Shown here in pieces: positions 7,511 through 29,792 of a stretch of 64,000 nucleotides of DNA. The translations under genes were made by a program, and so were the position numbers. The notes under the pieces are model-generated. The model was not told where the DNA came from, searched no databases, and worked only from the letters and a program-made list of their open reading frames with translations. Position 1 is the first letter of the stretch. Every line of letters begins with the position of its first letter. The stretch is from an uncultured Flavobacteriaceae bacterium (GTDB lineage: Bacteria; Bacteroidota; Bacteroidia; Flavobacteriales; Flavobacteriaceae): assembly GCA_943789465.1 (NCBI GenBank), contig CALSUF010000004.1, forward strand, positions 124,001-188,000, in the 5' to 3' direction.

Positions 7511-7542
7511 CCGTTATTTACGTTATTGGACCGTTTGTTACA
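7510..7542 (+). promoter_or_regulatory. LytTR-like direct-repeat pair, upstream member
   Basis: TCCGTTATT at 7510 and ACCGTTTGT at 7530 are spaced exactly 20 bp and each is followed by TAC. The second fits the LytTR consensus [TA][AC][CA]GTTN[AG][TG] at all nine positions. No TAnnTTTG lies 39 nt downstream, unlike the other units, so this pair may be an auxiliary site for the array at 7578. Confidence 0.5.
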
Positions 7543-7577
7543 TACTCAAATTTACTTCTGTTTGCCTCTTAAAAAGT

Positions 7578-7687
7578 AATGTTTATTACGTTATTTTGCC
7601 GTTTATTACAATATTTTGCCGTTTATTACATCATTTTGCCTTTTGTTACATGGTGTTTTTACATGAGTCTGTTTTTAATTTACTTTG
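7578..7687 (+). promoter_or_regulatory. Four-box 20-bp-period array plus -7 element upstream of a secreted-protein gene
   Basis: Boxes GTTTATTACG, GTTTATTACA, GTTTATTACA and TTTTGTTACA start at 7581, 7601, 7621 and 7641, with exactly 20 bp between starts. The spacers are also alike (ATTTTGCC). The element TTACTTTG (one mismatch to TAnnTTTG) starts at 7680, which is 39 nt after the last box start, the same distance as in five other units. The ATG of the next gene is at 7802, leaving a leader of about 110 nt. That it is a promoter with activator sites is inference. Confidence 0.65.
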
Positions 7688-7801
7688 TTTAACCTAAATA
7701 TATAGATGTTAAACAATTTTTTCTATTGGAAGAACAACGTTGATGTTGAAAAACAGTCTTACCGCAAATTATTATCCAACACCTAAAGTTTCAAAAACAT
7801 A

Positions 7802-10312
7802 ATGAATCAATTCAAACAACAATTTTTAGTATTATTATTTTTTACAGCACCTCTAATTACCTTTGCACAAGTAGGGATAGGAACTACCGATCCAAAAGCA
7901 GCCCTAGATGTCGTTAGTACAGATACTGGTTTCATTATGCCACGAGTCTCAGATCATACCACTTTATCTGTAGGAGTAGATCAAATAGGTATGCAAGTTT
8001 ATAATACGACTACCAACAGTATATGGTTTTATGATGGAACTGGCTGGGAAGCTATTTCAGGTGAAACTCAAGCTGCCGTGCCTCAATGGAAGTCCTCCAC
8101 AAATGATGGTGATTATGAGGAAAACGATGTTATAAATTATAATGGGGTTTTGTACAAAAATCTAACAGGCACAAATACAGATACAGAACCTGATACCGAT
8201 ACCGAAAATTGGATAACTGGGGGAGTTGGTGCAATTATAAATGATGGAATAATATCCACTAGTAGTGCTTGGTCGAGCAGTAAGATTGTTTCAGAAATAG
8301 TATCATCAGGAAATCTAATAGATCATGAAGGCCTCATCAAAAAAGAACTTATTTCTGTAGAGTTAGAAAGTGGGCAAGTCACACTGACATATCCTCAAAT
8401 TGACGCAGCATTGTATCATGTGTTTTATGATACAGTACCTATTCATGATTTAACTGGAGCTGGAGATGTGACCACTACCCAGCAAACAGCTATTATCACA
8501 GGATTAACAAACGGAACTACTTATTATTTCTATGTCAAGCCAGTTATTGCGCCACCAAGTGCAAGAGTTATCGTCCGTCCAGGAACTCCACTTGAATTTA
8601 GTTCTTTGTTAACAGCAGATGGAGTCGCTGGAAATACTGGAGAAATAGAAGTACAGGTCACTTTAGACCCCGCAGCAGGGGGGTATAAGTTTATTTTAAC
8701 AACAGATGGTGTGCCAACTGAGGTTGTGCAAACAGGCACAACTTGTACCTTTAGTGGTGTTGCAAGATACGAACAGGATGTAGCTATTACCAGCGCTACA
8801 AGAACTAGTGAAGTTACTGTGTATAATTCTATTGCCCATGGGATAATTGCTGGGCAAAGTATTTTAGTAGAAGGGTTTTCTAATACCACTTTTAACGGAG
8901 ATATGATTGTCGAATCCGTCTCTGCTAATTCATTTTCAGTTTACCAAAAAGGGCAAGTGGATACTTCAGAATCGACTGCGGCACTACTTAAAAAATACAA
9001 AACACACACATTGGTCGTAGAATCACTTGATGATACGACTGCTCAAAACAGCTTACTAGCGAGCTCGACACTGTCGTTCAATGTTTCTGAAAAATATTTT
9101 GTTCTAAACAATGGGGGGTATTGGGCATACAATAGATTCGTGTTTGCGGCTAATTATAACTTCTACGCACCACGTTCCCTGCATCATTACATAGACCCTA
9201 CTTCTCATAATGATTTGATAGAAGCCAATACAAAATTTGCTCCGATGGTAGGATTACGAAGGTTACCAAATGTTCTGGTTTCTCCAAAAACCAATCAAGA
9301 CCAAAATATCCCAGTATATGCTGTGTTTGACGATGTCTCTGGAGTTTATGGTTCTACATTTTATTTGGAGAATGGAGATACAACATCAAATCAAATGACG
9401 TTTTCAGGAGCAGGTTACAAAACACTCGTTATTGACGATAACGATACAACGTATGAAGACGGTATGGGTCGGGTAGGAACAGGATCTACAGATCAAGATC
9501 CACACCCAAGTGAATCAACAGGACTCTCTTATTTTACTAGAACCCTTAATCTTGGAGGCTATTCATCACTAGGCAGCTTTTTAGGCACCCAGCCCACCCT
9601 TTCAACTGTAGCAGAACGTGTGGGGCAAGCTGTTATGGAGGCAACCAATAATGGTACAAATCGTAATATCATTGTATGGGTAGATTTAGTAAATCAGCGT
9701 TTTGCTTGGAGAAACAATGGAAATCATCATTATGTGACTTTTGCTTCACTAGGGGTCACTATTAGTAATTCGTCGGTCAGGAACAGCTTAGGGGTAGTAT
9801 CTGATGGTATAGACACGATTCTCGTAGGTAAAACAAGTGATTCAAATTTTTATACGATCCAATTTAATTGGATTTCAAATACAGCACAACTTATGGCAAC
9901 GCATAGCAGTTCAGCTACTGATGATGATATCTTTAATGGAAATGCTACAGAAGAAGATGCAACAGGTGCGGTGCTTCACGCTGTTAACGGTAAAATATGT
10001 TATTTAGACTCCGCTGGGTCTAGTGGAATTTGGGCGTTGTCAGGAAGTATGTATGATCCAAATGATACAAATAAGATAACTCATTACTACGATACCTCAG
10101 GGTCAGCCACGCAAACAGGAACTGATACTCTCCATGGAACTAGTACTGTACTCAGGACAACAGCAAACGGAGTTAAAGGGTTTGAATCGATACACACTGA
10201 CAAGGGACATGATAGTTCTGGGTTGTTTTCTGGAAGCATTAGTGCCGATCAGGGTTGGACTCGTGCGAGGTCAAATATTTTAATGATTGCTATTGGAAAT
10301 GGGGTTTATTAA
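7802..10312 (+). CDS. Large secreted surface protein with CBM-like module
   Basis: This 836-residue protein has a clear signal peptide (residues 1-22, ending ITFAQ) and then the VGIGTTDPKAALDV segment found at the mature N-terminus of many Bacteroidota surface proteins. Residues about 95-138 (PQWKSSTNDGDYEENDVIN, then YNGVLYK... and a closing W) resemble a chitin/cellulose-binding CBM5/12-type module. Residues about 180-245 look like a fibronectin type III domain (ALYHVFYDT ... GTTYYFYVKP). The remaining ~590 residues are beta-rich and unassigned. I see no T9SS C-terminal sorting domain. A role in adhesion or glycan contact is inferred. The N-terminal ~125 codons are nearly repeated in the next gene, and the upstream region carries the four-box array. 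Confidence 0.7.
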   Translation: MNQFKQQFLVLLFFTAPLITFAQVGIGTTDPKAALDVVSTDTGFIMPRVSDHTTLSVGVDQIGMQVYNTTTNSIWFYDGTGWEAISGETQAAVPQWKSSTNDGDYEENDVINYNGVLYKNLTGTNTDTEPDTDTENWITGGVGAIINDGIISTSSAWSSSKIVSEIVSSGNLIDHEGLIKKELISVELESGQVTLTYPQIDAALYHVFYDTVPIHDLTGAGDVTTTQQTAIITGLTNGTTYYFYVKPVIAPPSARVIVRPGTPLEFSSLLTADGVAGNTGEIEVQVTLDPAAGGYKFILTTDGVPTEVVQTGTTCTFSGVARYEQDVAITSATRTSEVTVYNSIAHGIIAGQSILVEGFSNTTFNGDMIVESVSANSFSVYQKGQVDTSESTAALLKKYKTHTLVVESLDDTTAQNSLLASSTLSFNVSEKYFVLNNGGYWAYNRFVFAANYNFYAPRSLHHYIDPTSHNDLIEANTKFAPMVGLRRLPNVLVSPKTNQDQNIPVYAVFDDVSGVYGSTFYLENGDTTSNQMTFSGAGYKTLVIDDNDTTYEDGMGRVGTGSTDQDPHPSESTGLSYFTRTLNLGGYSSLGSFLGTQPTLSTVAERVGQAVMEATNNGTNRNIIVWVDLVNQRFAWRNNGNHHYVTFASLGVTISNSSVRNSLGVVSDGIDTILVGKTSDSNFYTIQFNWISNTAQLMATHSSSATDDDIFNGNATEEDATGAVLHAVNGKICYLDSAGSSGIWALSGSMYDPNDTNKITHYYDTSGSATQTGTDTLHGTSTVLRTTANGVKGFESIHTDKGHDSSGLFSGSISADQGWTRARSNILMIAIGNGVY

Positions 10313-10401
10313 TTTGAACAGGCTTTATACAATTATAATAGAATTTAAATTAATTAGTCAAAAAACAGTCATAAGAATTTTTTAATTAACACAAAAATAA
10401 A

Positions 10402-12193
10402 ATGAACCAATTCAAAACAATTTTTAGTATTATTATTTTTTACAGTACATCTAATTACATTCGCACAAGTAGGGATAGGAACTACTGATCCAAAAGCAGC
10501 CCTAGACGTCGTAAGTACAGATACTGGTTTCATTATGCCACGAGTCTCAGATCATACCACTTTATCTGTAGGAGTAGATCAAATAGGTATGCAAGTTTAT
10601 AATACGACTACCAACAGTATATGGTTTTATGATGGAACTGGCTGGGAATCTATTTCAGGAGAAACTCAAGCTGCCGTGCCTCAATGGAAGTCCTCCACAA
10701 ATGATGGTGATTATGAGGAAAACGATGTCATAAATTATAATGGGGTTTTGTACAAAAATATAACAGGCACAAATTCAGATGATGCTCCTGATTCTGATAT
10801 TATTAACTGGATGCCATTGTCAGAGGAGCAGTCAACACTTGTGTATGAAAATAAAGAGTACACGATTGACAATATTGTAGGATATTTGGGTACTATGTAT
10901 GTGTCTAAACAAAATATTACAATTCCTGAATTCCCTCAATTTAGTAAAACGACCACGTACTCTATAGGAGATAAGGTTTATCATGAGGGAGCCATCAGAG
11001 TGGCACAAGAAAACATAACTATTCCGACCAACTATCCCTATGATACAAATGCTATTTCTTTTCCAAATGCGGGGTGGAGTTCATTTACTTTTAGAATAGA
11101 TCCAAATTCAAACTATGGTTTTGCTTCAGTACAATCTTGGAACAGCTTTAAAATAAGATCTTCTGGAATGTCGACTTTAAAAGTAAAGATATTTGATAAT
11201 AGTGGAAACGAAATAGCAAACAGAATAGCAACCAATGTAGAATCTTTAGGCGATAATTGGGATCGTTTTACAATGACTCCTTATAACTTAACAGGGAATG
11301 AGAGCATTGGTTTTTATATTCCCCCTGGAAATCAAATTTATTTAGACAACGTTAATGGATTTGATTTATTTTATGCCTCCGGAGATGTTACTGCTACAAC
11401 AAATACACAAACTGACAGGAAACTTGCTTTTGAAATACTAGCCTCCACCAATGAAGAAGGAGCTGCTTTTGACGAGTCACAGTGGGGTACACAAACATTT
11501 TTACCAACGGAAAATTGGCGTGTTTTTAAAGAAGGACAAAATGCAGTACCACTATGGGATTCCTCCACAAATGGAGCAATTTACATTGCGAATGATATTG
11601 TAAATTATAACGGAATACTCTATAAAAATTTAACAGGAACTAATTCAGATACAGCCCCAGATTTAGATTCTACCAATTGGGCAATTTCAGGTGGTAGTGG
11701 TGGAGACCATCCAGACACATCGTCTCAAAACAGTGTAAACTACTCAGGAGGTACACTTATTCAAGACATTACACTCGATGGAAATGGGCATGTTACCGGT
11801 ATAGGAGCAAAAACAATTAAATCCCCTCAAGCTTGGAGTTTTTCTTTTTCAAATTTAGCAGGAGGTTACGGAACTCAAGTGGCAGTATTGCCTTACAATA
11901 TTAAGATCTATGTTAATTCCAGTCGCCAGATTTATCTTACAACAACAGATACTCGATTTAGTGGAAGTGAATCGTGGGGGTATGCCTCGTTTGAGTATCG
12001 TTATAGCACTAGTACTCGGGGGACAGGGTTGTTAAGGACAAACCAATATACTTATGCGGGATCACTCAGTAGATATCAACCCGTTACAATCACTATTATT
12101 CCACCTGGAAACCATGGGTTTTCTTTTCATAACCGAATTACAATTTCGTGTTCTCATGATTACGCTGCGGGATTTATACTGGCTACGAATTAG
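10402..12193 (+). pseudogene. Secreted CBM-like-module protein, frameshifted in the signal peptide
   Basis: From 10462 on this is a close copy of the start of the 7802 gene (VGIGTTDPKAALDV, then MPRVSDHTTL). The ATG at 10402 matches that gene's start, but the stretch after TTCAAA is 2 nt shorter than in the other copy, so the signal peptide is read out of frame and stops after about 28 codons. The in-frame part (Met at 10535, 552 residues) lacks an export signal and has no good start nearer the signal peptide. It holds at least two CBM5/12-like modules of the W...Y..ND.V.YNG.LYKN.TGTN type (first and about residues 340-385) and a jelly-roll-like middle. It may be a pseudogene, a phase-off allele or a sequence error. 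Confidence 0.6.
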
Positions 12194-12362
12194 TTAAAAC
12201 TTGTAGAGCGATATAAGTAGTTGTGGTTTGCAGAGAGATGTTGGTCAATGGTATTTTAGTTTTTTAATCCCCTTCCTTATTACTGAATTTGTAAAGTAAA
12301 GTCGTTCTTAGAAACTAAAACCTCTTATGATTTAGGGGCTTGTTTTTTAAATTTCCAAAATC
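12194..12362. other. Gene-free stretch with a weak terminator-like hairpin
   Basis: Around 12318-12352 AACCTC...GGGGCTT followed by a T-run could form a weak terminator for the preceding gene. Nothing else is recognised. Confidence 0.3.
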
Positions 12363-12453
12363 CCCGTTCCTTACATAATTCTCTTAAGAGATTACATCAT
12401 TTTGCCGTTTGTTACTTTGTTTTTTTTATTTACAAATATTAAAATCACATTTG
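12363..12453 (+). promoter_or_regulatory. LytTR-like boxes and -7 element (unit 12.4)
   Basis: A box GTTTGTTACT starts at 12407 (preceded by GCC, 8 of 9 positions of the LytTR consensus). Degenerate boxes end in TTACA at 12375 and 12396, about one and two 20-bp steps upstream. CACATTTG starts at 12446, exactly 39 nt after the last box start, and differs from TAnnTTTG at one position. A terminator-like hairpin follows about 55 nt later, so the unit seems to drive a short RNA. Confidence 0.55.
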
Positions 12454-12458
12454 TAACG

Positions 12459-12534
12459 GAATTTCATAAAAGCATGTAATGTTAATTCTAATATTCAAGT
12501 GAAAGCCTGTCCATTAATTTAGATGGGCTTTTGC
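12459..12534 (+). ncRNA. Candidate small RNA, unit 12.4
   Basis: The approximate start is placed about 6 nt after the -7 element and the end at the T-run after the hairpin AAGCC...CAT/ATGGGCTT (12504-12530, with a 4-nt bulge). No coding potential is seen. Before the hairpin it carries GTTAATTC and GTGAAAGCC, loosely like the GTTAAATT and GGAAAA elements of the other units. The ends are estimates. Confidence 0.4.
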
Positions 12535-12614
12535 TATGATTATTTTTTGGTATTGCTTTATTTAAATTAACGCTGGCAGCCTATTTTAGAGGTCTTAATA
12601 ACCCTCGTTGATGT

Positions 12615-12654
12615 TCAGCTTTACCTTACTAAAAGTAAGATAAAGCTGATTTTT
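12615..12654 (+). terminator. Strong stem-loop with T-run
   Basis: TCAGCTTTACCTTAC and GTAAGATAAAGCTGA pair around a short AAAA-type loop, followed by TTTTT. It could end read-through of the small-RNA unit at 12.4 kb; no gene directly precedes it. Confidence 0.65.
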
Positions 12655-12719
12655 ACTTAAAATTAGTGTAAAAAACACTTTTTGATCCACTCCAACTTCC
12701 CGTTCTTCCCATTAGATGA

Positions 12720-12789
12720 ATCGTTTATTACGTCAATGTCCCGTTTGTTACACGTTGCTTTAGATTTAAAAACCTTGTAACAATCTTTG
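12720..12789 (+). promoter_or_regulatory. LytTR-like box pair and -7 element (unit 12.7)
   Basis: GTTTATTACG at 12723 and GTTTGTTACA at 12743 are 20 bp apart; the context ATCGTTTAT/CCCGTTTGT fits 8 of 9 consensus positions each. AATCTTTG starts at 12782, 39 nt after the second box, with one mismatch to TAnnTTTG. Transcription would start about 15-20 nt before the ATG at 12811. Confidence 0.6.
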
Positions 12790-12810
12790 CATGGTAAACC
12801 ATTACCATAC

Positions 12811-13419
12811 ATGCGTCCAACCGCAATCATTATTTTGTTTTTATGCAGCCTTAGTGGGTTTGCTCAGTTCTATGTGACTGATGGCACCCTATTTAGTTTA
12901 CAAACTTCCGAAACCATTTTAAGTTCTCAAGAAACACTCCATCAAATAAATGCTTCCGTGCTGGGTAACGGTGCTGTAATTTTAAATAGTACTTCCAAAC
13001 AACAACTGACAAGTACACAAGCTATTTTGGAACTTCCAACACTCCATATTAAAAATGCTGATTTGGTACAACTCCAAACCGATCTCCACATTCAAAATCA
13101 ACTGCACATTGACCGCGGACTCCTTACACTTTCTAACCTCCTAAAACTCCCAGATCCTTCGGCTCTTCGTTTAGGCGCTCAAGCATTTCTTTATCTTATG
13201 CCACAGGGGCAACTGCTGTACGACACACAGCTTGTCAATGCCGCTCCTTTTGCCTATGCACTGGCACAAAACGTGTTGGTTTCTTTACTACCAATCAGTC
13301 CACAAACACCCGACTCTAGGGAGTTGAACGTTGTACAATGTTCCTGTTTTGTAAGGTACGCTCCAAAAGACTATGAAGCCTATTTTTACATTTTTAAGCC
13401 GCCACCAAAAGACGTTTAA
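12811..13419 (+). CDS. Secreted protein of unknown function, possibly truncated
   Basis: I chose the ATG at 12811 because it begins a good signal peptide (MRPTAIIILFLCSLSGFAQ); the frame also opens at a TTG at 12787, which lies inside the proposed -7 element. The 202-residue product has a beta-helix-like pattern (repeated ILNSTSKQQLTSTQAILELPTLHIKNADL, then LQTDLHIQNQLHIDRGLLTL) and then becomes irregular, ending in YFYIFKPPPKDV. I do not recognise the family. The low-complexity, proline-rich end suggests that a longer protein was cut short. It may be part of the box-controlled regulon. Confidence 0.5.
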   Translation: MRPTAIIILFLCSLSGFAQFYVTDGTLFSLQTSETILSSQETLHQINASVLGNGAVILNSTSKQQLTSTQAILELPTLHIKNADLVQLQTDLHIQNQLHIDRGLLTLSNLLKLPDPSALRLGAQAFLYLMPQGQLLYDTQLVNAAPFAYALAQNVLVSLLPISPQTPDSRELNVVQCSCFVRYAPKDYEAYFYIFKPPPKDV

Positions 13420-13531
13420 GATTAAGAATTAAGTACTTGGTTTTAAGTATTATAACAAAGACTAAACAGAACAAACCAAGATCACTGTAACCAAACAATT
13501 CACCATACAAATCAAATTTTAATTTAATAGT

Positions 13532-14467
13532 ATGAACAAAAAATATATTTATCTGTTAGGGTTACTTATAGCCAGTTTTGGTGCTACTGCCCAAACCATT
13601 AATTTGGAATTCCCTTATTTTGCAGGTAAAACCTATGAGTTTAAAATTGTACAAGGCAATAAACATATTGTGTTGCAAAATGATACTATACCAAAAGGTG
13701 GCAAAATACAGTTGCAAATACCCACAGCATACAAAGGCTATAAAGGTATGGCAATGTGGTATTTAACAAACAGCAAAACGGGTGGTGGTTTAGAGTTGGT
13801 TATTAATAATGAAGATTTTTCGGTGTCTTGTTTAGATGCTATACCTACAGACACCAACATTATTTACAAAAACACTAAAGAAAATATTTTTGAAAAAGGC
13901 ACTCACAAAAAGCAAGAAACCCTTTTTGCCAAGCACGATGCTATGCTATACGCTACCAGAGCGTATAACAAAACCCATAAGTTGTACTCTGTTTTTGCAA
14001 AAGAATATGATGTAATTTTAGAAGAATACAAGGTATTTGTAAATGAACTAAAAAACAGCCCTTTATATGCGGCACGTTTTAGAGAAATTGCAAATATTAC
14101 AAAAGGTATTGGTACTCTTATGACTCAAAATGAAAATTTAAAAGCACAAAACATTAATAATAGTATTGTAAATCAGCTAGATTTTGAGGCCGTTTATACC
14201 TCTAATTTTTGGTATGGTGTTATCAATAACTTTGTGCAATTGCAAACCAATGTGCTAAAAAACGATGCCCAATTTATTGCCAATGTCAAAACAATATTAA
14301 AACGAATCCCTACAGACAAAGTGTACACCGAATTTGTTGTTAGTTTATCCGAAGAATTAACAAAAGTAGAAAAAGACAACATCATTGAAGCTTTAATATC
14401 AGAAATAAAAAATTCTAATAAACTACAAAACTATGATGGTGTTTTAAGTATGTATCAATTAAAATAA
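13532..14467 (+). CDS. Secreted protein of unknown function
   Basis: This 311-residue protein has a signal peptide (NKKYIYLLGLLIASFGATAQ). The N-terminal ~100 residues (YEFKIVQGNKHIVLQNDTIPKGGKIQL ... MAMWYL) resemble the DUF4369-type beta domain that precedes thioredoxin domains in Bacteroidota TlpA proteins. The rest is helical and has no CxxC motif and no thioredoxin fold, so it is not a redox enzyme as it stands. It precedes the three tandem paralogues by 34 nt and may be cotranscribed with them. Function unknown. Confidence 0.55.
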   Translation: MNKKYIYLLGLLIASFGATAQTINLEFPYFAGKTYEFKIVQGNKHIVLQNDTIPKGGKIQLQIPTAYKGYKGMAMWYLTNSKTGGGLELVINNEDFSVSCLDAIPTDTNIIYKNTKENIFEKGTHKKQETLFAKHDAMLYATRAYNKTHKLYSVFAKEYDVILEEYKVFVNELKNSPLYAARFREIANITKGIGTLMTQNENLKAQNINNSIVNQLDFEAVYTSNFWYGVINNFVQLQTNVLKNDAQFIANVKTILKRIPTDKVYTEFVVSLSEELTKVEKDNIIEALISEIKNSNKLQNYDGVLSMYQLK

Positions 14468-14501
14468 AAACAAAAATAAAAACAAAAATAAAAACAAAAA
14501 A
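14465..14501 (+). repeat. Three 12-bp A-rich tandem units directly before an ATG
   Basis: The unit AAAAATAAAAAC is present three times: T at 14465, 14477 and 14489, and C at 14471, 14483 and 14495, an exact 12-bp period. The two paralogues at 16155 and 17807 have only one such unit. It replaces any Shine-Dalgarno sequence. A-rich leaders aid initiation in Bacteroidota, so copy number might tune translation; that is inference. Confidence 0.7.
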
Positions 14502-16022: not shown

Positions 16023-16154
16023 TAACTCCTTCTCGAACGACTACACCCCCCGTACACAGGGCTTCTCTGTGCGTTGCGTTAAGGAGAACTAAAGTAATCA
16101 AAAAATTGTGTGTAAATTCTGATCGGATTTAGATAAAAAATAAAAACAAAAAAA

Positions 16155-17744
16155 ATGAAAAAAATACTATTAAGTGCTGCACTCTTTGCAGTCAGTTTTA
16201 CAACACTAGCACAAGTTGGTATTGGAACAGAAACTCCCGAAGGTATCTTAGATGTGGTATCTACAGACAGTGGATTGGTGGTACCTCGTGTGGCAAATAT
16301 TGCTGCTGTGACCACCCCTGTAAACGGAACTATTGTCTATGACATTGCTTCCAATTGTATAAGAACCTATGAAAATGGTGTTTGGGCCAACTGTTTGGGC
16401 GCAGGCGTTACCACCATCACAGTTACCAACGATTGTGATGCCAGTGGTGTTGTAACAGGCGAAAACCCTAGAGTAGGAGCCGCTCTTTTGACGGCTTCTT
16501 TTTCGGTAACCCTTACCAACTCCTCCTTTGCCAAAGCAACCGCTGTTTTTTCAGCTGGTGATTTGGTGCTCAGTGGTGCGAGCAGCTCAAATATTACCGT
16601 AGGCACTCCTTACGTTGGAGATGGACCTTCAACGTTGATGACCTTGGATGGTGGAAAAAGCCAAAAAATAACCTACCCACTCACAGGTAGCCCCTCTGCT
16701 TTAGGTACCCTAACTGCCACTTGGACCAAGCTCAACTTGAGCTGTACCAAAACAATTCCCATTGTTAAAGGAGACGCTGCTTTTACACTACCACCCATAG
16801 ATCCTATCCTTTCCATTGGCGATACAAACGCAGACATGCAAGGGGTGATTGACAATGCCACCAACAAAATCACCATAGACATTCCGTATACCTCAGGAGC
16901 TGGAACTTATGATGCCTACACCAGTACTGCAGTTGTTGCCACTGGAGAATCAGCGGATACCAATAACATCACCATCAGCTACCCAGCAGGAACGTTTAGT
17001 GGTACAGGGTCCATTACAGTAACCGTTGTTGTAGATGGCGATGGGACTTTTAACGTTAAAAAACAACTCTTTAACGTGTTAGAAACTATTGGTACTTTTG
17101 ACTTCCAAGTAAATGAGATATCTAAGGGCAACATAGTATTGCAAGCTTCTGGAGGAGCCCCTACTGTTAAAGTAAATGCCTCCGGCGGTACTACTCTAAC
17201 CTTTTTGGCACACAATTTAGGTGCAGACACAAGTTTAGATGCAAATACACCTCTACAAGCCATACACGGTAATTATTACCAATGGGGTAGAAGTATAGTT
17301 GCAGCAAATGCTAATACCCCAAGTGCTGCTATATCTGGCTGGAACACTTCTACTGCTCCAAATGGTGCTTGGTCAGATTCCAGTAAAACTGCTGAAGATC
17401 CTTGCCCAGATGGTTATAAAGTACCATCAGCGTCCCAATGGAATTTAGTTATTGCCAACAATACATACACCACAATAGGTACATTTACAAATAGCTCAAC
17501 AAACTTTAGTTCTGCAGGAGTCTTTGGATCTGGTGCAACACAATTAACATTACCGACTGCTGGCTCACGAGGTGGTACAAATGGAGCGTTGCTGTCCCGT
17601 GGATTAGCAGGCCTATATTGGACTAGTACTATGTATACTACGGGAACCGCCAGGTACACAAACATAAACAATAGTAACTCCTTCTCGAACGACTACACCC
17701 CCCGTACACAGGGCTTCTCTGTGCGTTGCGTTAAGGAGAACTAA
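16155..17744 (+). CDS. Fib_succ_major-type surface protein, paralogue 2 (intact)
   Basis: This 529-residue copy is complete: signal peptide, VGIGTETPEG start, variable segment (about residues 55-195), central block (KGDAAFTLPPIDP through QLFNVLETIGTF), and a full Fib_succ_major-type domain ending GFSVRCVKEN. From about base 16734 to the end it is almost identical at DNA level to paralogue 1, apart from a short patch around 17290-17360 (SIVAANANTPSAAISGWNTSTAPNG against SRVAA...DWTIWGIAPNG) and scattered changes. The 62-nt gaps before and after are identical in sequence. It is the reference for reading the frameshifts in its neighbours. Confidence 0.75.
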   Translation: MKKILLSAALFAVSFTTLAQVGIGTETPEGILDVVSTDSGLVVPRVANIAAVTTPVNGTIVYDIASNCIRTYENGVWANCLGAGVTTITVTNDCDASGVVTGENPRVGAALLTASFSVTLTNSSFAKATAVFSAGDLVLSGASSSNITVGTPYVGDGPSTLMTLDGGKSQKITYPLTGSPSALGTLTATWTKLNLSCTKTIPIVKGDAAFTLPPIDPILSIGDTNADMQGVIDNATNKITIDIPYTSGAGTYDAYTSTAVVATGESADTNNITISYPAGTFSGTGSITVTVVVDGDGTFNVKKQLFNVLETIGTFDFQVNEISKGNIVLQASGGAPTVKVNASGGTTLTFLAHNLGADTSLDANTPLQAIHGNYYQWGRSIVAANANTPSAAISGWNTSTAPNGAWSDSSKTAEDPCPDGYKVPSASQWNLVIANNTYTTIGTFTNSSTNFSSAGVFGSGATQLTLPTAGSRGGTNGALLSRGLAGLYWTSTMYTTGTARYTNINNSNSFSNDYTPRTQGFSVRCVKEN

Positions 17745-17806
17745 AGTAATCAAAAAATTGTGTGTAAATTCTGATCGGATTTAGATAAAAAATAAAAACA
17801 AAAAAA

Positions 17807-19465
17807 ATGAAAAAAATACTATTAAGTGCTGCACTCTTTGCAGTCAGTTTTATAACTTTTGCACAAATAGGGATCAACACCCAAACTCCCGAAGGTATCT
17901 TAGATGTGGTATCTACAGACAGTGGATTGGTGGTACCTCGTGTGGCAAATATTGCTGCTGTGACCACCCCTGTAAACGGAACTATTGTCTATGACATTAC
18001 TTCCAATTGTATAAGAACCTATGAAAATGGTGCTTGGTCCATATGTTTGAGCGGAGGCGCGAACGGAGGCACGGTTTCCAACGATTGTGACACCAATGGT
18101 TTTAAAGAAGAATTAGCCCCTATACAAAATATCGATGCCTCAGGAAATTCTTCTTTTTCAGTGACCCTGACCAACAACAGTTTTGCAGAGGTTGGTGTTA
18201 TATTCTCTTCAGACGACTTGGTGCTGAGCGGCGATAACAGCTCAGACCTTACCGTAGGCACTCCTTCACCTTTAAGTATAAGTAATTGGCAATCTGGAGG
18301 AAGCCTAAAAGTAACCTACCCACTTATCGGCACGCCCACTACTTTAGGCACCCTAACTGGGACATGGACCAAGTTCAACTTGAGCTGCACCAAAACAACT
18401 CCCATTGTTAAAGGAGACGCTGCTTTTACACTACTACCCATAGATCCTATCCTTTCCATTGGCGATACAAATGTAGACATTCAAGGGGTGATTGACAATG
18501 CCACCAACAAAATCACCATAGACATTCCGTATACCGGAGGACATGAAACTTATGATGCCTACACCAGTGCTGCAGTTGTTGCCACTGGAGAATCAGCGGA
18601 TACCAATAACATCACCATCAGCTACCCAGCAGGAACGTTTAGTGATACAGGGTCCATTACAGTAACCGTTGTTGTAGATGGCGATGGGACTTTTAACGTT
18701 AAAAAACAACTCTTTAACGTGTTAGAAACTATTGGTACTTTTGACTTCCAAGTAAATGGGATATCTAAGGGCAACATAGTATTGCAAGCTTCTGGAGGAA
18801 TTACAGACCGTAATTTTGTCGATGCCGACCATAAGTTTATATATACAAGCGTTACCAACCCTACAACGGGAAAAACGTGGTTGAGTAACAACCTAGGGGC
18901 GCATTACACCAATGTGAACCATGCGGCTTTTGACCCAAAAGCACAGGCAACAGCCTCCTACGATTTTAAGGCTTATGGAAGTCTCTTCCAATGGGGTCGT
19001 TATTCTGATGGACACGCCCTAATCAATTGGACATCTGCTACAGGATCTGATGGTGCTGAGCAGATAAGAGAAACTACTACCACCTCTGCATCTACTACAG
19101 TAGGGCACGATGATTTTATTTTAAGGCCTTACGAGGCAACGGGTTATTGGTACACAGGTCCCCCCCTTGATTTATGGAAAGGAGAAGGAAGTTTAAATAA
19201 CCCTTGTCCAGTAGGTTACAGAGTACCAAGCGCAGGAGAGTTGAATGTAGAGCGTGTGTCTTGGAGTCCAAATAATGGTGAAGTAGGTGCAATTAATAGC
19301 CCATTAAAACTATCAAGTGGAGGCGACCGCAATGAAATTGGAGGCAATCTGGAGGATGGTTATGGAAATTACCAGACGCATTCGGAAAATTTCGTTTTAA
19401 CTATTAGTAGATTCAAGTTATTTCCAAAGCGAGTTTTACTCCGGTATCGCGTTACGTTGCATTAA
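17807..19465 (+). CDS. Fib_succ_major-type surface protein, paralogue 3 (C-terminal frameshift)
   Basis: The signal peptide and first ~45 residues match paralogues 1 and 2. Then comes its own variable segment, then the shared central block (about 18400-18800), and then a different version of the C-terminal domain (TGKTWLSNNLGA, FQWGRYSDG, NNPCPVGYRVPSAGEL). Near 19400-19418 the frame is lost: the product ends in LLRYRVTLH, whereas another frame encodes SGIALRCIKD and a stop at 19472, the expected family ending. Two of the three tandem copies are therefore broken in the last ~20 codons. The secreted surface role is as for its neighbours. Confidence 0.65.
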   Translation: MKKILLSAALFAVSFITFAQIGINTQTPEGILDVVSTDSGLVVPRVANIAAVTTPVNGTIVYDITSNCIRTYENGAWSICLSGGANGGTVSNDCDTNGFKEELAPIQNIDASGNSSFSVTLTNNSFAEVGVIFSSDDLVLSGDNSSDLTVGTPSPLSISNWQSGGSLKVTYPLIGTPTTLGTLTGTWTKFNLSCTKTTPIVKGDAAFTLLPIDPILSIGDTNVDIQGVIDNATNKITIDIPYTGGHETYDAYTSAAVVATGESADTNNITISYPAGTFSDTGSITVTVVVDGDGTFNVKKQLFNVLETIGTFDFQVNGISKGNIVLQASGGITDRNFVDADHKFIYTSVTNPTTGKTWLSNNLGAHYTNVNHAAFDPKAQATASYDFKAYGSLFQWGRYSDGHALINWTSATGSDGAEQIRETTTTSASTTVGHDDFILRPYEATGYWYTGPPLDLWKGEGSLNNPCPVGYRVPSAGELNVERVSWSPNNGEVGAINSPLKLSSGGDRNEIGGNLEDGYGNYQTHSENFVLTISRFKLFPKRVLLRYRVTLH

Positions 19466-19524
19466 GGACTAAGCAACAGCGCTGGCGTTACCCTATTGCG
19501 TTAAATAATCAACCTTAAAATTAA

Positions 19525-19556
19525 AACCACTGCACTCAGTTGCGGTGGTTTTTTTT
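19525..19556 (+). terminator. Rho-independent terminator after the paralogue cluster
   Basis: ACCACTGCA and TTGCGGTGGT pair around CTCAG, followed by eight T. It lies about 60 nt after the last paralogue and would end the cluster's transcript. Confidence 0.85.
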
Positions 19557-19682
19557 GTTTAGAAAAAAGAGTGTAGAAAAAAGTGATGAGTCATGAGTTA
19601 GGGGTTAGGAGTTGTGAGCATTTAGCATCTAGCGTCTAGCATCTACATAAAAGACATAGTTTTCGTTCTTTACAAAATAAGC

Positions 19683-19752
19683 TACGTTTATTACGTCAAT
19701 TAGACGTTTGCTACATAGCGTTTTTGGTTTTGGATATTAATTATGATATTTA
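19683..19752 (+). promoter_or_regulatory. LytTR-like box pair and weak -7 element (unit 19.7)
   Basis: TACGTTTAT at 19683 (all nine consensus positions) and GACGTTTGC at 19703 (seven) are 20 bp apart, each followed by TAC. At the standard distance of 39 nt after the second box start lies GATATTTA (19745), which keeps A and TTT of TAnnTTTG but not the ends. TTG is at 19724-19726. This is the weakest promoter of the family. Confidence 0.5.
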
Positions 19753-19757
19753 AATAA

Positions 19758-19829
19758 CAATTTATGATTATAGTAAGTTAAATTTTAGTAGGAAAAGCCC
19801 CCGTTTGACATAACAAGGGGGTTTTTTTA
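19758..19829 (+). ncRNA. Candidate small RNA, unit 19.7
   Basis: A short segment between the box unit and a hairpin (CCCCC at 19798-19802, GGGGG at 19817-19821, then seven T). Before the hairpin it has AAGTTAAATTTTAG and GGAAAA, resembling AAGTTAAATTGG and GAAAA in the twin units at 23 kb. No open reading frame of note. The ends are estimated. Confidence 0.45.
19797..19829 (+). terminator. Hairpin with T-run
   Basis: CCCCCGTT and AAC/GGGGG pair with a small bulge, followed by TTTTTTT. It ends the candidate RNA of unit 19.7. Confidence 0.7.
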
Positions 19830-19832
19830 TTG

Positions 19833-20296
19833 TTATATGGTTTTTTGATTCGTTGTATTAGAGCATAAACGATGCAGTAGGATGTGTTATGAGCTCTATT
19901 ATTATAGCATAAGAACCCGCAAATAATGAACTCTACAAAGTGGCTAAAAATAGAGGTTTTTCTGAAATGATTCCCATAGCTTTAAGCGGATCATTGTACC
20001 ATGAAATAGACTTTGTTCTAGTAATTTTTAGAAATACCCAATAGAACTAAGACATTTTTGATAGGGGTAAATAATGTTGGAACTACTTGGGTTACCAATA
20101 AAGCCCCCTATATTTTACAGGATTTTTTGATCGAAACGCGGTTTGTAATATACCTGGACTGACCAATGCCACAGTACCATTTTTGATGGGAGTAATAATA
20201 GTGAGCTGCTTTTTGCTGTTCTACAGACTTTTCGTTTTAAATTTTGTTGCTACTTAAGGTTATAGTACCTTAGCCTTCGTTATTCAAAATGCTTTT
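19833..20296. other. Gene-free stretch with possible decayed coding sequence
   Basis: Short open stretches occur in different frames, for example about 39 codons from 19928 to the TAG at 20041 (ELYKVAKNRGFSEMIPIALS) and about 30 codons near 20071-20160. None has a start and a recognisable family. This could be the remains of a gene; I cannot name it. Confidence 0.25.
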
Positions 20297-21295
20297 ATGC
20301 CGGGGTCCAATATTACTTTAAAACAATTGTCATCCATTTTAGGGGTGTCTATTTCAACTATTTCAAAAGCGTTGAATGATAGTCATGAAATTAGTGATGT
20401 GACCAAAAAACGCATTGTGGAGATGGCAAAACTTCATGACTATCAACCCAATAAAATTGCGGTGGGTTTGAAGTCTGGAAAAACCAATACCATTGCAGTA
20501 GTGATTCCAAGTGTTCAAAATAGTTTTTTTGCACGCGCTTTGTATGGCATTGAAAGCCTAATTTCGGAAACCAATTTTAATATTATAGTGTGTTTGACCA
20601 AAGAATCTCACACCAAAGAAGTGGAGACTTTCAATATGTTGTCCAATGGGGTGGTAGATGGTTTTATAGTAGCTGTTTCTGAAGAAACACAGAATTTACA
20701 AAATTACGATCATTTTACAAATGCATTGGAAAATGGCAAATCGGTTGTGATGTTTGATCGTGTCATTGATTCTGTGAATTGTGGAAAAGTGACTACAAAC
20801 GACTTTACAGCTTTGTCAGAGGCCACTCAAACACTTATAAGTTCAGAGCGAAAAAATATTGTATTATTGACTACCATACATAAGTTGAATGTTGGAAAAC
20901 AACGGGCACAAGGCTATATAAAAGCCATGAATGCGGCAGGATTTCAGCCTGTTATTCTAGAATCCGATGACCAACAAGCAGGTACTGTGATGGTTGATTA
21001 TTTAAAGTCTAATCCAGTTGATGCGATCATTGCGTTGGACACAGATGCCTCTTTGTCTGCTTTAAAAGCAGTGAAGGTTTCTGGAATGCAAATTCCAAAA
21101 GATATAGCCGTGATTGGGTATGTGAGTGAACGTATGGCACACAACCTAACACCAGAATTAACAACAATCAATCAACACAGTTATACAATAGGAAATGCGG
21201 CAGCACAAATGATTACTGAAGCCATTCGAACTAAATCTAAAGAGATCAAACATATTGTAGTCAGTTCTACTTTATCAGTTCGAGATTCCTCCTAA
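20297..21295 (+). CDS. LacI family transcriptional regulator
   Basis: This 332-residue protein has the two-part LacI layout. The N-terminal helix-turn-helix (ITLKQLSSILGVSISTISKALN) and hinge helix (YQPNKIAVGLKSGKT) are followed by a periplasmic-binding-protein-like effector domain starting IAVVIPSVQNSFF. LacI regulators in Bacteroidota usually control sugar-use loci, but no transporter or glycosidase gene adjoins this one, so the target and inducer are unknown. A terminator follows directly. It may be an orphan left by loss of the neighbouring locus; the gene-free stretch before it looks decayed. Confidence 0.92.
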   Translation: MPGSNITLKQLSSILGVSISTISKALNDSHEISDVTKKRIVEMAKLHDYQPNKIAVGLKSGKTNTIAVVIPSVQNSFFARALYGIESLISETNFNIIVCLTKESHTKEVETFNMLSNGVVDGFIVAVSEETQNLQNYDHFTNALENGKSVVMFDRVIDSVNCGKVTTNDFTALSEATQTLISSERKNIVLLTTIHKLNVGKQRAQGYIKAMNAAGFQPVILESDDQQAGTVMVDYLKSNPVDAIIALDTDASLSALKAVKVSGMQIPKDIAVIGYVSERMAHNLTPELTTINQHSYTIGNAAAQMITEAIRTKSKEIKHIVVSSTLSVRDSS

Positions 21296-21298
21296 AAA

Positions 21299-21335
21299 GA
21301 ATACAAGCCCACCAAGTGAGCTTGTATATAATTTT
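21299..21335 (+). terminator. Terminator of the LacI-type gene
   Basis: ATACAAGC and GCTTGTAT pair with an inner CAC/GTG, then ATAATTTTATTTT. It starts a few bases after the LacI stop. Confidence 0.75.
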
Positions 21336-21428
21336 ATTTTCCAAATAACACGATTTCATTGATTACCACTTCTGTGGTATACCGTTTGTTGCCCTCTTTA
21401 TCGATCCAAGAACAGTTGGTTAACTTGC
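21334..21428 (-). pseudogene. Remnant of an ssb 3' end
   Basis: Read leftward, this encodes NCSWIDKEGNKRYTTEVVIN then EIVLFGK and a stop, clearly the C-terminus of a single-strand-binding protein like the intact gene at 22093 (RSWDDKEGNKRYTTEVVVNE). Similarity stops at about 21428. The changes are mostly compatible with the protein, so it was once a coding paralogue. The remnant and the intact gene flank the toxin-antitoxin pair. Confidence 0.75.
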
Positions 21429-21493
21429 GTTAGTTGTAAATTCACTATTCTTTTTTGTGTGGAAAACCGTTAAATAGACATTAAAGCAAGTAT

Positions 21494-21790
21494 TTAAATC
21501 TTGTCTGTCCAGTTTTTTGGATTTTTACTTGTATGAAAAACTGCTATTATTTTAATCGTTTTTTTATCCATAATATAATGAATGCCAAATGGAAATGTTT
21601 TGGTAAAATAGATGTGTACGTTTTTATATTTTTTTTGAATGGTCTGAGGTTCTTTGGACAGATATTCAATACTTTGTTTAATTTCTTCTTGAAATTTTTT
21701 AGCTAATTCTTTTTTCTTTTTACCATACCAGAACGATGCTTCAGCGATGTCAAATATAGCTTCATCAGAAACTAAGACATCATAAATCAT
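21494..21790 (-). CDS. ParE/RelE-family toxin
   Basis: This 98-residue basic protein has the ParE/RelE plan: VSDEAIFDIAEASFWYGKKKKELAKKFQEEI (two helices), then a sheet ending IHYIMDKKTIKIIAVFHTSKNPKNW. The Arg/Lys-rich ending and FHTSKNP motif are typical of the plasmid-stabilisation group. Such toxins act on gyrase or the ribosome; which one cannot be told here. It starts with a 4-nt overlap (ATGA) with the preceding antitoxin frame, as in a normal operon. The toxin looks intact although the antitoxin is frameshifted. Confidence 0.85.
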   Translation of the reverse strand: MIYDVLVSDEAIFDIAEASFWYGKKKKELAKKFQEEIKQSIEYLSKEPQTIQKKYKNVHIYFTKTFPFGIHYIMDKKTIKIIAVFHTSKNPKNWTDKI

Positions 21791-22016
21791 AGTGTCTGTT
21801 TTAGTTTTTGCTCAACTTGTTCCCACGTGTAAAGTTTGGTGTCTCCATTATTAATTCTTGATAAACGCCTGTCTAACTCTTCTTTATGAGATTGAGGCAA
21901 TTCAAAAGAAGTTTCAGTATCGTCATTTAAAAGCACTTTTATTTTTTAATTAATGACTCTTTTTGCGTTTCAAGTAATAACTTAACAAGTTCTATTTTCT
22001 CTGTTTGTAAATCCAT
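21787..22016 (-). pseudogene. Antitoxin of the ParE-type toxin, frameshifted
   Basis: From ATG 22016 the frame runs 25 codons (MDLQTEKIELVKLLLETQKE, then SLIKK) to a TAA at 21939-21941. The -1 frame continues IKVLLNDDTETSFELPQSHK and on through ELDRRLSRINNG and LYTWEQVEQKLKQTL, ending at 21787 with a 4-nt overlap with the toxin. The whole would be a ~76-residue addiction-module antitoxin of the usual type. One extra A in the A6 run at 21942-21947 restores it. It could be a real mutation, a sequencing error in a homopolymer, or ribosomal slippage, for which the site TAAAAAA is not ideal. Confidence 0.65.
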
Positions 22017-22092
22017 AACACTATAATTATACAGCTAAGTTAATCAAATTAATGCTTTTATAAAACGTAAAAAGAGTCATTGTTATAATATG

Positions 22093-22428
22093 CTATTTAC
22101 TAAACATCAACAATTCATTGACCACCACTTCTGTGGTATACCGTTTGTTGCCTTCTTTGTCGTCCCAAGAACGGTTGGTTAATTTGCCTTCAATCGCAAT
22201 TTCTTTGCCTTTGGTAACGTAGTTCTCGATGAGTTCTGCAGTTTTGTTCCATGCGACAAGGTTGTGCCATTCTGTTTTGGTTTGTTTTTGACCATCAGCA
22301 TCTTTGTAGTACTCGTTTGTTGCCAATGAAAATTTCGCTAATTTTTGTCCACTGTCTAAAGTAATGATTTCTGGATCATTTCCTAGGTTTCCAATTAACT
22401 GTACTTTGTTTCTAAGTGTGTTCATCAT
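22093..22428 (-). CDS. ssb: Single-stranded DNA-binding protein (short form)
   Basis: This 111-residue OB-fold protein starts MMNTLRNKVQLIGNLGNDPE and has the core ATNEYYKDADGQKQTKTEWHN followed by GKEIAIEGKLTNRSW. It ends in VVNELLMFSK directly after the OB fold, so it lacks the flexible linker and acidic DDDIPF-type tail that recruits partner proteins. Short tail-less SSBs are common as second copies in Bacteroidota, often with mobile DNA or competence. A double Met at the start makes 22425 an equal choice. A truncated paralogue lies at 21334. Confidence 0.92.
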   Translation of the reverse strand: MMNTLRNKVQLIGNLGNDPEIITLDSGQKLAKFSLATNEYYKDADGQKQTKTEWHNLVAWNKTAELIENYVTKGKEIAIEGKLTNRSWDDKEGNKRYTTEVVVNELLMFSK

Positions 22429-22505
22429 AAATAATTTTAAGGTTATTACAGTTTTACTATCGAACGATTCGACACTGCAAAGATGTGATACTGTCCAAAT
22501 GTTAG

Positions 22506-22557
22506 TCGGTTATTAGTTGTTTAATTTCGTTTGTAATTACTTGTAGTCGTTTGTAAT
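22506..22557 (+). promoter_or_regulatory. Weaker 20-bp-period boxes between ssb and the zinc-ribbon gene
   Basis: GGTTATTAGTT, CGTTTGTAATT and CGTTTGTAATT have their GTT cores at 20-bp intervals (GTT starts at 22509, 22529, 22549). They resemble the island boxes but lack the TTAC end, and the nearby TACATTTG at 22566 is not 39 nt away. They may be a diverged member or unrelated. Confidence 0.3.
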
Positions 22558-22565
22558 TGGTTAAT

Positions 22566-22573
22566 TACATTTG
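22566..22573 (+). promoter_or_regulatory. Candidate -7 element (TACATTTG)
   Basis: Perfect TAnnTTTG 36 nt before the ATG at 22609, with TTG at 22541-22543 about 22 nt upstream. Confidence 0.6.
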
Positions 22574-22608
22574 TATATTCGCTCTTTATAATCACAATTT
22601 AATATAAA

Positions 22609-22956
22609 ATGAAAAAGCAATGCCCCGAATGTAGTGATCCAATTATTGGTCGAACAGACAAAAAGTTTTGTAGTGATGGTTGTAGGAATAGCTATAATAA
22701 TCGCGTTAATAAGGATCAGAAAAATCTCATTAGAAATATTAATAATCGTTTGAGAAAAAACTGGCGTATTTTGGAATCTCTTAATCCGCATCAAAAAACA
22801 AAATCAACTCGTGATAAGCTCATAGCTAAAGGTTTTGATTTTAATTATTTTACAAGCATTTATACGACGAAGTCTGGCACAGTTTATTATTTTGTGTACG
22901 ACCAAGGGTATTTGCCCTTAGAAAATCAGTTTTATGCATTGGTTAAGCGTGAGTAA
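22609..22956 (+). CDS. Small zinc-ribbon protein of unknown function
   Basis: This 115-residue protein begins with a treble-cysteine pattern CPECSDPII...KKFCSDGC, spaced like a zinc ribbon of the DUF2116 type. A basic helical part follows (NRVNKDQKNLIRNINNRLRK), then a short C-terminal beta part (YTTKSGTVYYFVYDQGYLPL). Nucleic-acid binding is plausible from the Zn motif and basic helix but not shown. It is divergent from ssb, with a shared 180-nt intergenic region. Small proteins of this look are frequent in Flavobacteriaceae, but I know no defined function. Confidence 0.7.
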   Translation: MKKQCPECSDPIIGRTDKKFCSDGCRNSYNNRVNKDQKNLIRNINNRLRKNWRILESLNPHQKTKSTRDKLIAKGFDFNYFTSIYTTKSGTVYYFVYDQGYLPLENQFYALVKRE

Positions 22957-23000
22957 CACTTTTTAGATTAGAATGTATCTCCGATTATGTGCTTATGATT

Positions 23001-23070
23001 ACCGTTTATTACGTCAAATACCCGTTAGTTACATAGCTGTTGTAGAGGCTGTATAAGGACTCTATATTTG
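23001..23070 (+). promoter_or_regulatory. LytTR-like box pair and perfect promoter (unit 23.0)
   Basis: ACCGTTTAT at 23001 (9 of 9 positions) and CCCGTTAGT at 23021 (8 of 9) are 20 bp apart, each followed by TAC. TTG is at 23040-23042, and TATATTTG at 23063-23070 follows after 20 nt. The second box start to -7 distance is 39 nt. The boxes would sit at about -70 and -50 from the transcription start, as expected for an activator. Confidence 0.75.
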
Positions 23071-23075
23071 GGGTA

Positions 23076-23147
23076 TGTAATTTAATATCTTACTTAAAAG
23101 TTAAATTGGTTAATTTTGGAAAACACCACTCTTGTGGTGTTTTTTTT
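23076..23147 (+). ncRNA. Candidate small RNA, twin copy A
   Basis: A ~72-nt transcript is predicted from the promoter at 23063 to the terminator. From 23090 on it is nearly identical to copy B: TTACTTAAAAGTTAAATTGG, then TTAATTTT and the hairpin AACACCAC/GTGGTGTT. The first ~15 nt differ between copies. No start codon with a sensible frame is present. The ends are estimated from the promoter and terminator. Confidence 0.65.
23119..23147 (+). terminator. Terminator of small RNA copy A
   Basis: AACACCAC and GTGGTGTT pair around a TCTT loop, followed by eight T. Confidence 0.88.
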
Positions 23148-23188
23148 GTTTTACGCTCACCTATTAAATCGTTTAAATATATTATATC

Positions 23189-23258
23189 CCCGTTGGTTAC
23201 GCAGACTATCCGTTTGTTACATGGTAGTTGTGAGACTGCTTAATAGGGCATACATTTG
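23189..23258 (+). promoter_or_regulatory. LytTR-like box pair and perfect promoter (unit 23.2)
   Basis: CCCGTTGGT at 23189 (8 of 9) and TCCGTTTGT at 23209 (9 of 9) are 20 bp apart. TTG at 23228-23230 and TACATTTG at 23251-23258 are separated by 20 nt. The box start to -7 distance is 39 nt, as in unit 23.0. Confidence 0.75.
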
Positions 23259-23263
23259 TCTAA

Positions 23264-23347
23264 TGTAGGGTCGGGTTTTCTTGACGTTACTTAAAAGTTA
23301 AATTGGTTAATTTTTGAAAAACACCACTCTCGTGGTGTTTTTTTTTT
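23264..23347 (+). ncRNA. Candidate small RNA, twin copy B
   Basis: A ~84-nt transcript is predicted. Its 5' part (TAATGTAGGGTCGGGTTTTC region) is unlike copy A, while the part from 23287 matches copy A apart from one inserted T and a C/T change in the terminator loop. Conserved 3' half with variable 5' half, in tandem 188 bp apart, suggests duplication followed by divergence of the 5' region, which might be the target-reading part. Confidence 0.65.
23316..23347 (+). terminator. Terminator of small RNA copy B
   Basis: AACACCAC and GTGGTGTT pair around TCTC, followed by about ten T. Confidence 0.88.
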
Positions 23348-29730: not shown

Positions 29731-29792
29731 AATGTTAGATTGGTTAATATAATTTTGTCTTATTTTTAAGAAGACGGTTTATTCCAAAAAAA

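Follow-up and report, generated by a model that had tools for sequence, protein, structure and literature searches.

A 20-bp-period direct-repeat box at a fixed distance from the −7 element in promoters of predicted small RNAs and surface proteins of Flavobacteriaceae, with a candidate LytTR-domain activator

RNAIII of the agr system of Staphylococcus aureus acts on surface-protein mRNAs, and VR-RNA belongs to the VirR/VirS regulon of Clostridium perfringens. Here we analyze a 64,000-nucleotide stretch of DNA (the window) from an uncultured marine Flavobacteriaceae bacterium, comprising bases 124001–188000 of contig 4 in a 2.1-Mb assembly of five contigs that is ~85% complete, in which boxes of the form CGTTTRTTAC recur at 20-bp steps and at a constant distance from the −7 elements of promoters that precede predicted small RNAs and surface proteins. 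The best comparison for such boxes is with the sites of LytTR-domain regulators, which are reported as repeats of 9–11 bp with 11–13 bp between them (PMC4847170, PMC6193735); the spacer is mostly 12 bp, with a minority of 11 or 13 bp, and the repeats lie mostly 10 bp before the −35 element (PMC6193735). PMC4847170 describes the sites as lacking a common consensus. AgrA, the regulator of agr, is a LytTR activator that acts on direct repeats before its promoter (PMC4227749), HdrRM and BrsRM of Streptococcus mutans use 9-bp direct repeats with an 11–13-bp spacer, mostly 10 bp before −35 (PMC6193735), and the AlgR site of Pseudomonas aeruginosa is given as CCGTTYGTC (PMC4064291). Within the flavobacteria, Rfp18 and other small RNAs of Flavobacterium psychrophilum are transcribed from TAnnTTTG promoters, and pairing of Rfp18 with mRNAs of proteases and of a putative secreted adhesin has been predicted (PMC9723704). 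As far as the available parts of the articles go, the literature searched (on Bacteroidetes/Flavobacterium and on LytTR sites generally) contains no description of a Flavobacteriaceae regulon in which a regulator box unites small RNAs with surface proteins.

Two exact pairs CGTTTRTTAC-N10-CGTTTRTTAC are present in the window, compared with none in 100 shuffles, and 23 single boxes with up to one mismatch were found, compared with 9.9 ± 2.8 in the shuffled sequences. When such boxes lie 10–200 bp apart the commonest spacing is 20 bp (seven pairs), with every other spacing represented at most twice. Six promoter-proximal boxes start at positions 7640, 12406, 12742, 19705, 23023, and 23211 (1-based), and the elements found at offset 40 from them (Table 1) match 5, 5, 5, 4, 6, and 6 of the six fixed bases of TAnnTTTG, in that order. 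As background, 9.7% of plus-strand positions in the intergenic DNA of the surrounding island reach four of the six bases and 2.1% reach five. A first-pass annotation of this DNA had proposed box pairs of 20-bp period at one fixed distance from a −7 element, and this is upheld at the six promoters. The −7 elements lie where that annotation placed them, but its box starts were each one position too high, such that the distance, which is indeed constant, is 40 and not 39 from start to start. A partner exactly 20 bp upstream was also claimed throughout; at 12406 the unit in that position is degenerate (5/10 matches) and the recognizable partner, CGTTCCTTAC, lies 41 bp upstream at 12365, whereas the claim holds elsewhere among the six. 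One additional box pair, at 7512/7532, lacks a −7 element at offset 40.

The same geometry was evident in 101 distinct proximal sites collected from fetched loci of the source genus and a second genus, with genome_contigs loci, AraC loci, and one dummy stretch left out and sites near a locus end or containing N dropped; box 12406 is absent from this set because its pair is degenerate. At offset 40, 75 of the 101 sites carry at least five of the six fixed −7 bases, compared with 0–10 sites at each of 59 other offsets (15 to 74), and 29 sites carry all six, compared with 0–3 elsewhere. A logo in which similar sites were weighted down, leaving ~49 effective sites, places CCGTTTGTTACAT in the proximal unit at 0, CCGTTTATTACGTCAA in the middle unit at −20, and TAnnTTTG at +40..47, with a weak distal CCG.TT ~41 bp upstream. 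The conserved length is 14 bp for the proximal unit and 16 bp for the middle unit, and TTG or TTT stands at +17..19 in 76 of the 101 sites. In Bacteroidota a TTG at −33 is part of the sigma-A promoter, and the logo displays that complete pattern, with TAnnTTTG at −7 and TTG at −33. Placing the −7 box at −12 to −5, as was done for F. psychrophilum, whose promoters carry TAnnTTTG (PMC9723704), puts the start at +52 and the center of the proximal box near −47, and makes the TTG the −33 element. Because the spacing is fixed and is kept in two genera, a single regulator acting through one promoter architecture is strongly supported, and we regard the conserved regulon with its exact promoter geometry as real.

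When up to two mismatches are allowed, the source genome yields 11 matches to the pair pattern, eight in the window and three on other contigs, and the reversed-pattern control yields none. The three sites outside the window, at C1:117290 (TACTTTTA), C1:120115 (TTTCTTTG), and C2:315203 (TTATTTTG), each have five of the six −7 bases at offset 40 on their own strand, and the products downstream of them are a type IX secretion system (T9SS)-sorted protein, an OmpA-like protein with TSP3 repeats, and a predicted RNA. The boxes had been described as confined to the surface-protein/small-RNA island, which is thus wrong for the genome. Extending the scan to relatives, as the first-pass annotation had suggested, added sites in two genera to those in the genome. 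Among 299 genomes of the family, four have box pairs with up to one mismatch, all within these two genera, and the reversed control gave one match in each of nine other genomes. With two mismatches allowed, pairs occur in 14 of 18 genomes of the source genus (three reversed matches over the 18) and in 7 of 11 genomes of the second genus (no reversed match); the two-genera set of 29 therefore comprises 21 box-bearing genomes and eight without a pair at this threshold. Two of the eight, G317 and G305, hold variant boxes 5′ of RNA cores, the second unit in G317 being three mismatches off. In G305 (L311, L308, L296), units CACTTATTAC or CATTTATTAC replace CGTTTRTTAC at two RNA loci, a change that may represent drift or altered specificity.

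Database records with an exact box pair are mostly Flavobacteriaceae metagenome-assembled genomes, one record being titled Formosa sp. Hel1_33_131. Beyond the two genera, an exact pair goes together with −7-like elements (matching five or six of the six bases) at offset 39–40 in three records from Tenacibaculum and one from Lewinellaceae, and one of these four sites precedes a large secreted protein. In an intergenic region of L187 and L190 (Tenacibaculum), near an open reading frame (ORF) that by eye resembles a phage tail sheath, three boxes follow one another at 20-bp steps, and a TAATTTAG element lies as far from them as the −7 elements do elsewhere. Exact pairs are also found in Lachnobacterium and Domibacillus records; those in Lentisphaerae and Flavobacterium cerinum were rejected as only 10-bp tandem repeats.

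The published description of LytTR sites, so far as the cited accounts give it, agrees with this architecture. The box repeat consists of a 9-bp core and an 11-bp spacer (20-bp period), within the rule of 9–11-bp repeats set 11–13 bp apart, and with the 9-mer ending at +6 and TTG/TTT at +17..19 there is a 10-bp gap to the −33 element, as in reported LytTR promoters. The 11-bp spacer had earlier been set against a reported length of 12–13 bp; it lies within the published range and corresponds to its minority class (PMC6193735). The consensus [TA][AC][CA]GTTN[AG][TG], to which the boxes were previously compared, is matched at 8 or 9 of 9 positions by 90 of the 101 proximal boxes, but 34% of random 20-mers also reach 8/9 in some register. 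The consensus match was consequently rejected as stand-alone evidence, and motif likeness is weak by itself for this reason and because LytTR sites have no common consensus according to PMC4847170. It is the agreement of both the spacer and the gap to −33 with published LytTR sites that makes a LytTR activator the best reading.

Comparison with the individual systems reveals differences alongside these likenesses. The repeats here are nearer the promoter than those of AgrA, with a center at ~−47 as opposed to ~−60, and the RNAs are short, whereas relative to HdrRM and BrsRM the distinction lies in the targets, here predicted RNAs and surface proteins. The AlgR core, CCGTTCGTC or CCGTTTGTC, resembles the CCGTTYGTT found here, but AlgR sites are single and at varied distances (PMC4064291), unlike 20-bp tandem repeats at one distance. 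The VirR/VirS system differs in phylum, promoter type, box sequence, and box spacing; moreover, several RNA copies are present here and the regulator is only a candidate. For Rfp18 and the other F. psychrophilum small RNAs, the available portion of the report names no common regulator box (PMC9723704).

With moderate confidence, we interpret the boxes as operator sites of one activator, most likely of the LytTR-domain type and with LytTR-B as the likeliest protein, at promoters of RNAs and of envelope or secreted proteins. LytTR-domain matches are found in 28 of the 29 genomes, and the source genome has three such proteins: LytTR-A (C1:112591), LytTR-B (C2:165038), and a third at C4:190822, just outside the window. 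LytTR-B is an orphan response regulator encoded, here and in G299, between priA-like and rpsF-like genes (named by eye); it was aligned from 26 of the 29 genomes, including 18 of the 21 that bear boxes, and the single LytTR match in each of G299 and G046 is of this type. A glutamate occupies the expected position of the phosphate-accepting aspartate in 21 of 25 LytTR-B rows with a receiver (by eye, position inferred; L017:5021–5725 and orthologs), and the source-genome protein has an aspartate there. The distribution excludes LytTR-A as the only activator and allows both LytTR-B and an AraC protein, with the geometry favoring LytTR. One LytTR response regulator had been proposed earlier for all units: spacing and conservation sustain the single regulator, and the architecture, together with the likeness to the AlgR site CCGTTYGTC, points to the LytTR type short of proof, whereas the regulator encoded beside two of the sites fails as the sole one.

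A number of observations weigh against the assignment to LytTR-B. No LytTR match was found in G303, which bears boxes and is 73% complete, and LytTR-B was not established in the box-bearing genomes G310 and G313, where further LytTR matches exist. Conversely, LytTR-B is present, and intact as far as read, in the pair-less genomes G300, G301, G302, G308, G315, and G319, where it would need other work. Pair scans found no boxes at the LytTR-B locus, unlike the LytTR-A locus, and the CACTTATTAC units of G305 are accompanied by no DNA-contact change in LytTR-B that is obvious by eye. Finally, conservation of the middle unit over 16 bp exceeds the LytTR 9-mer, and the AraC protein is as widespread as LytTR-B. 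In the LytTR-B tree three of the six pair-less genomes share a clade with G317, and because of this grouping residue differences in that clade are inseparable from descent.

The alternative that survives best, albeit an unlikely one, is an activator of another family, for example an AraC protein of ~306 amino acids (aa) encoded beside a ferrochelatase-like gene, with the two helix-turn-helix motifs of each protomer on the 20-bp repeats. AraC sites are direct repeats with half-sites of ~17 bp and a period of ~21, and the 16-bp conservation of the middle unit suits such a half-site. HTH_18 matches occur in all 29 genomes, with only one in the source genome, and a similar AraC protein was present in all eight genomes tried, the ferrochelatase-like neighbor (named by eye) being displayed for six. 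However, the protein is also found in the pair-less genomes G300 and G308, no boxes lie nearby in the eight stretches of AraC loci examined, and both the 10-bp gap to −33 and the AlgR-like core, as published, fit LytTR better. An activator of yet another kind, such as one lost along with the boxes in the pair-less genomes, would account for the persistence of LytTR-B and AraC, both common to box-bearing genomes, where boxes are not found; we consider this improbable as well, given that the promoter geometry already fits a known family as described in the sources cited.

We see still less chance that LytTR-A (a receiver plus LytTR protein), together with the LytS-like kinase that it adjoins, is the activator and is replaced by another regulator in other genomes. 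LytTR-A is encoded 4–7 kb from two box sites in the source genome, boxes are near it by coordinates in G123, G268, G307, G314, and G318 (in G322 it is at a contig end), and the 10 of 29 genomes that have it, whole or in part (three of them partial), are all box-bearing, with none of the eight pair-less genomes among them. As the sole activator it was nevertheless rejected by its distribution, because 11 of the 21 box-bearing genomes gave no sign of it, seven of these 11 being <90% complete. These 11 include G299 (one contig, 99% complete) and G046 (99%), both with exact pairs, in which the regulator-kinase-OmpA block of G268 is missing and the box remains; among the other box-bearing genomes, G309 and G320 retain only part of LytTR-A, and in G321 it is interrupted. 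At ~6800–7400 of L165 (G320) an apparent deletion joins the 5′ part of an OmpA-like gene to the 3′ part of the LytTR-A gene. That the boxes are no protein sites at all and simply the by-product of a spreading, repeated promoter cassette is very improbable, since tandem family-1 RNA copies at ~183–211-bp steps do resemble local duplications but the same architecture precedes unrelated genes and RNAs, in like places in two genera and with diverged flanks.

Returning to the regulon proposed for a LytTR activator, the predicted transcript contains GTTAAATT within its first ~90 bases at 35 of the 101 sites. Thirty-two of these, picked for AGTTAAATTGGTTAAT, were aligned as family 1, to the exclusion of L007, in which it is absent, and of L086 and L113, which are laid out differently. 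The core is identical by selection, and the terminator has nine predicted pairs, four with changes on both sides. Family-1 copies stand in tandem, up to three of them, with a treble-clef-like ORF on one side and a TPR-like ORF on the other; five genomes of the second genus have a further copy 5′ of a Y_Y_Y-type regulator gene, beside SusCD-like genes where read. Family 2 comprises 17 loci, picked by place, that have in common CTTTTTTGCCC, ACCTAC, and a terminator. Rfam covariance models gave no match up to E 0.1 in window positions 7300–23500 and none at the gathering score in five loci that include both RNA families. The exact 17-nt family-1 core is present in 22 of the 29 genomes; two copies (L284, L309) are without promoter boxes, G300 keeps two cores with its boxes gone or decayed, and G318 has boxes and no exact core. 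Boxes, spacing, conservation, and RNA-like units are all seen directly in the sequence. Other sites precede proteins with signal-peptide-like starts, including OmpA-like and T9SS-type proteins. Separately, further RNA-like paralogs in G123 (L261, L266, L271, L275) and in the source genome (L267, C2:32649) have a core GTTGAATTGG or ATTGAATTGG followed by a stretch like ATGAAGAATCAGATTTGAGGTCTAAG, with no boxes seen in the 170 bases 5′ of them.

Complementarity of the family-1 core to mRNA start regions is a lead, and would fit repression at the start region of secreted-protein mRNAs. At the place of the window site 5′ of the 1121-aa ORF (Table 1), orthologs in the close relatives G123, G320, and G311 match at 14, 14, and 13 of 17 positions; the stretches also fetched from G312, G321, G322, and G323 contain no ortholog. 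In five genomes, complementary sites with up to two mismatches number 49, compared with 31 for the reversed pattern (source 9:10, G123 18:11, G299 5:3, G046 10:5, G268 7:2), but this is no excess, because 11 of the 49 fall on the RNA genes and at least five on apparent RNA paralogs, so that at most 33 remain against 31; what stands out is their position alone. The 30 loci returned consist of 11 RNA genes, five paralogs with GTTGAATTGG or ATTGAATTGG cores, and 14 others; position data cover these 14 and the window site, with the 18 matches without a locus outside them. The complementarity lies 0–5 nt before an ATG in 8 of the 14, and seven of these eight open a signal-peptide-like sequence. As a control, the core was shuffled 300 times and compared with 683 candidate starts, made unique, in 554 kb not chosen for the core and with some locus overlap. 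At 14/17, three starts matched compared with a mean of 0.29 (3/300 shuffles as high), and at 15/17 one start matched (5/300 as high), whereas at 12/17 there was no clear excess (19 versus 14.1; 64/300 as high). Duplex energies prove nothing alone, since the sites were chosen for complementarity. Near-start matches at the T9SS gene L015:18220 and in the LytTR-A leader were taken as chance because comparison with relatives (one for the former, six for the latter) showed neither to be retained.

Table 1. Box arrays, −7 elements, predicted RNAs, and associated ORFs in the window
Feature	Position	Strand	Remarks
Four-box array, 20-bp steps (7580, 7600, 7620, 7640)	7580..7649	+	sequence
−7 element TTACTTTG	7680..7687	+	predicted +1 at ~7692 by the −12 to −5 rule as given in PMC9723704
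836-aa ORF, signal-peptide-like start, downstream of −7 TTACTTTG	7802–10312	+	
Boxes 12365 (CGTTCCTTAC) and 12406 (CGTTTGTTAC), degenerate middle unit	12365..12415	+	
−7 element CACATTTG	12446–12453	+	
Predicted short RNA, 3′ hairpin and T-run	12458..12533	+	sequence, predicted fold
Box pair 12722/12742	12722..12751	+	−7 AATCTTTG at 12782–12789
ORF with signal-peptide-like start, after −7 AATCTTTG	ATG 12811, to 13419	+	
Box pair 19685/19705	19685..19714	+	−7 GATATTTA at 19745–19752
Predicted short RNA and terminator, retains AAGTTAAATT of family-1 core	19757..19828	+	sequence, predicted fold
Box pair 23003/23023	23003..23032	+	−7 TATATTTG at 23063–23070
Predicted small RNA family 1, copy 1: core AAGTTAAATTGGTTAAT, then terminator	23075..23147	+	
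Box pair 23191/23211	23191..23220	+	−7 TACATTTG at 23251–23258
Predicted small RNA family 1, copy 2	23263..23347	+	
1121-aa ORF, signal-peptide-like start, 3′ of complementary site	26365–29730	−	
Site complementary (15/17) to family-1 core	29731..29747	−	directly 5′ of ATG; possible target

Positions 13532–19465 of the window hold tandem surface-protein ORFs, two of which have Fib_succ_major matches, one above and one below the Pfam cut-off; the domain is also found near the contig-1 (C1) box sites.

From these features we infer activation, the regulator, transcription, and the RNA targets. A LytTR-domain activator would bind head-to-tail, with two and sometimes three or more protomers on the 20-bp-spaced repeats, just 5′ of the −33 element of a promoter that is otherwise of the ordinary Bacteroidota sigma-A type. 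It would turn on at least nine promoters in the source genome, six in the window and three elsewhere, yielding envelope or secreted proteins as well as short RNAs, the latter comprising the two conserved families along with others. The family-1 RNAs would then probably pair through the 17-nt core with some secreted-protein mRNAs, at their start regions. The LytTR identity of the activator is likely. By analogy, we also raise the possibility, which we hold to be doubtful, of a Bacteroidota counterpart of agr-RNAIII or VirR-VR-RNA, in which an orphan LytTR protein, its receiver degenerate in most relatives, would drive a multi-copy short RNA that pairs by its core with secreted-protein mRNA starts, so that one set of surface proteins is turned on and another off.

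With its exact spacing, the architecture can serve directly as a search pattern for the regulon in related genomes; it also indicates which RNAs to seek and leaves a small number of candidate regulators open to test. Of the whole regulon, the predicted RNAs hold the most interest. The mRNAs of Bacteroidota are described as being without Shine-Dalgarno sequences (PMC6847099), and should the core prove to pair with start regions, this would supply a target rule for RNA regulation in such a phylum.

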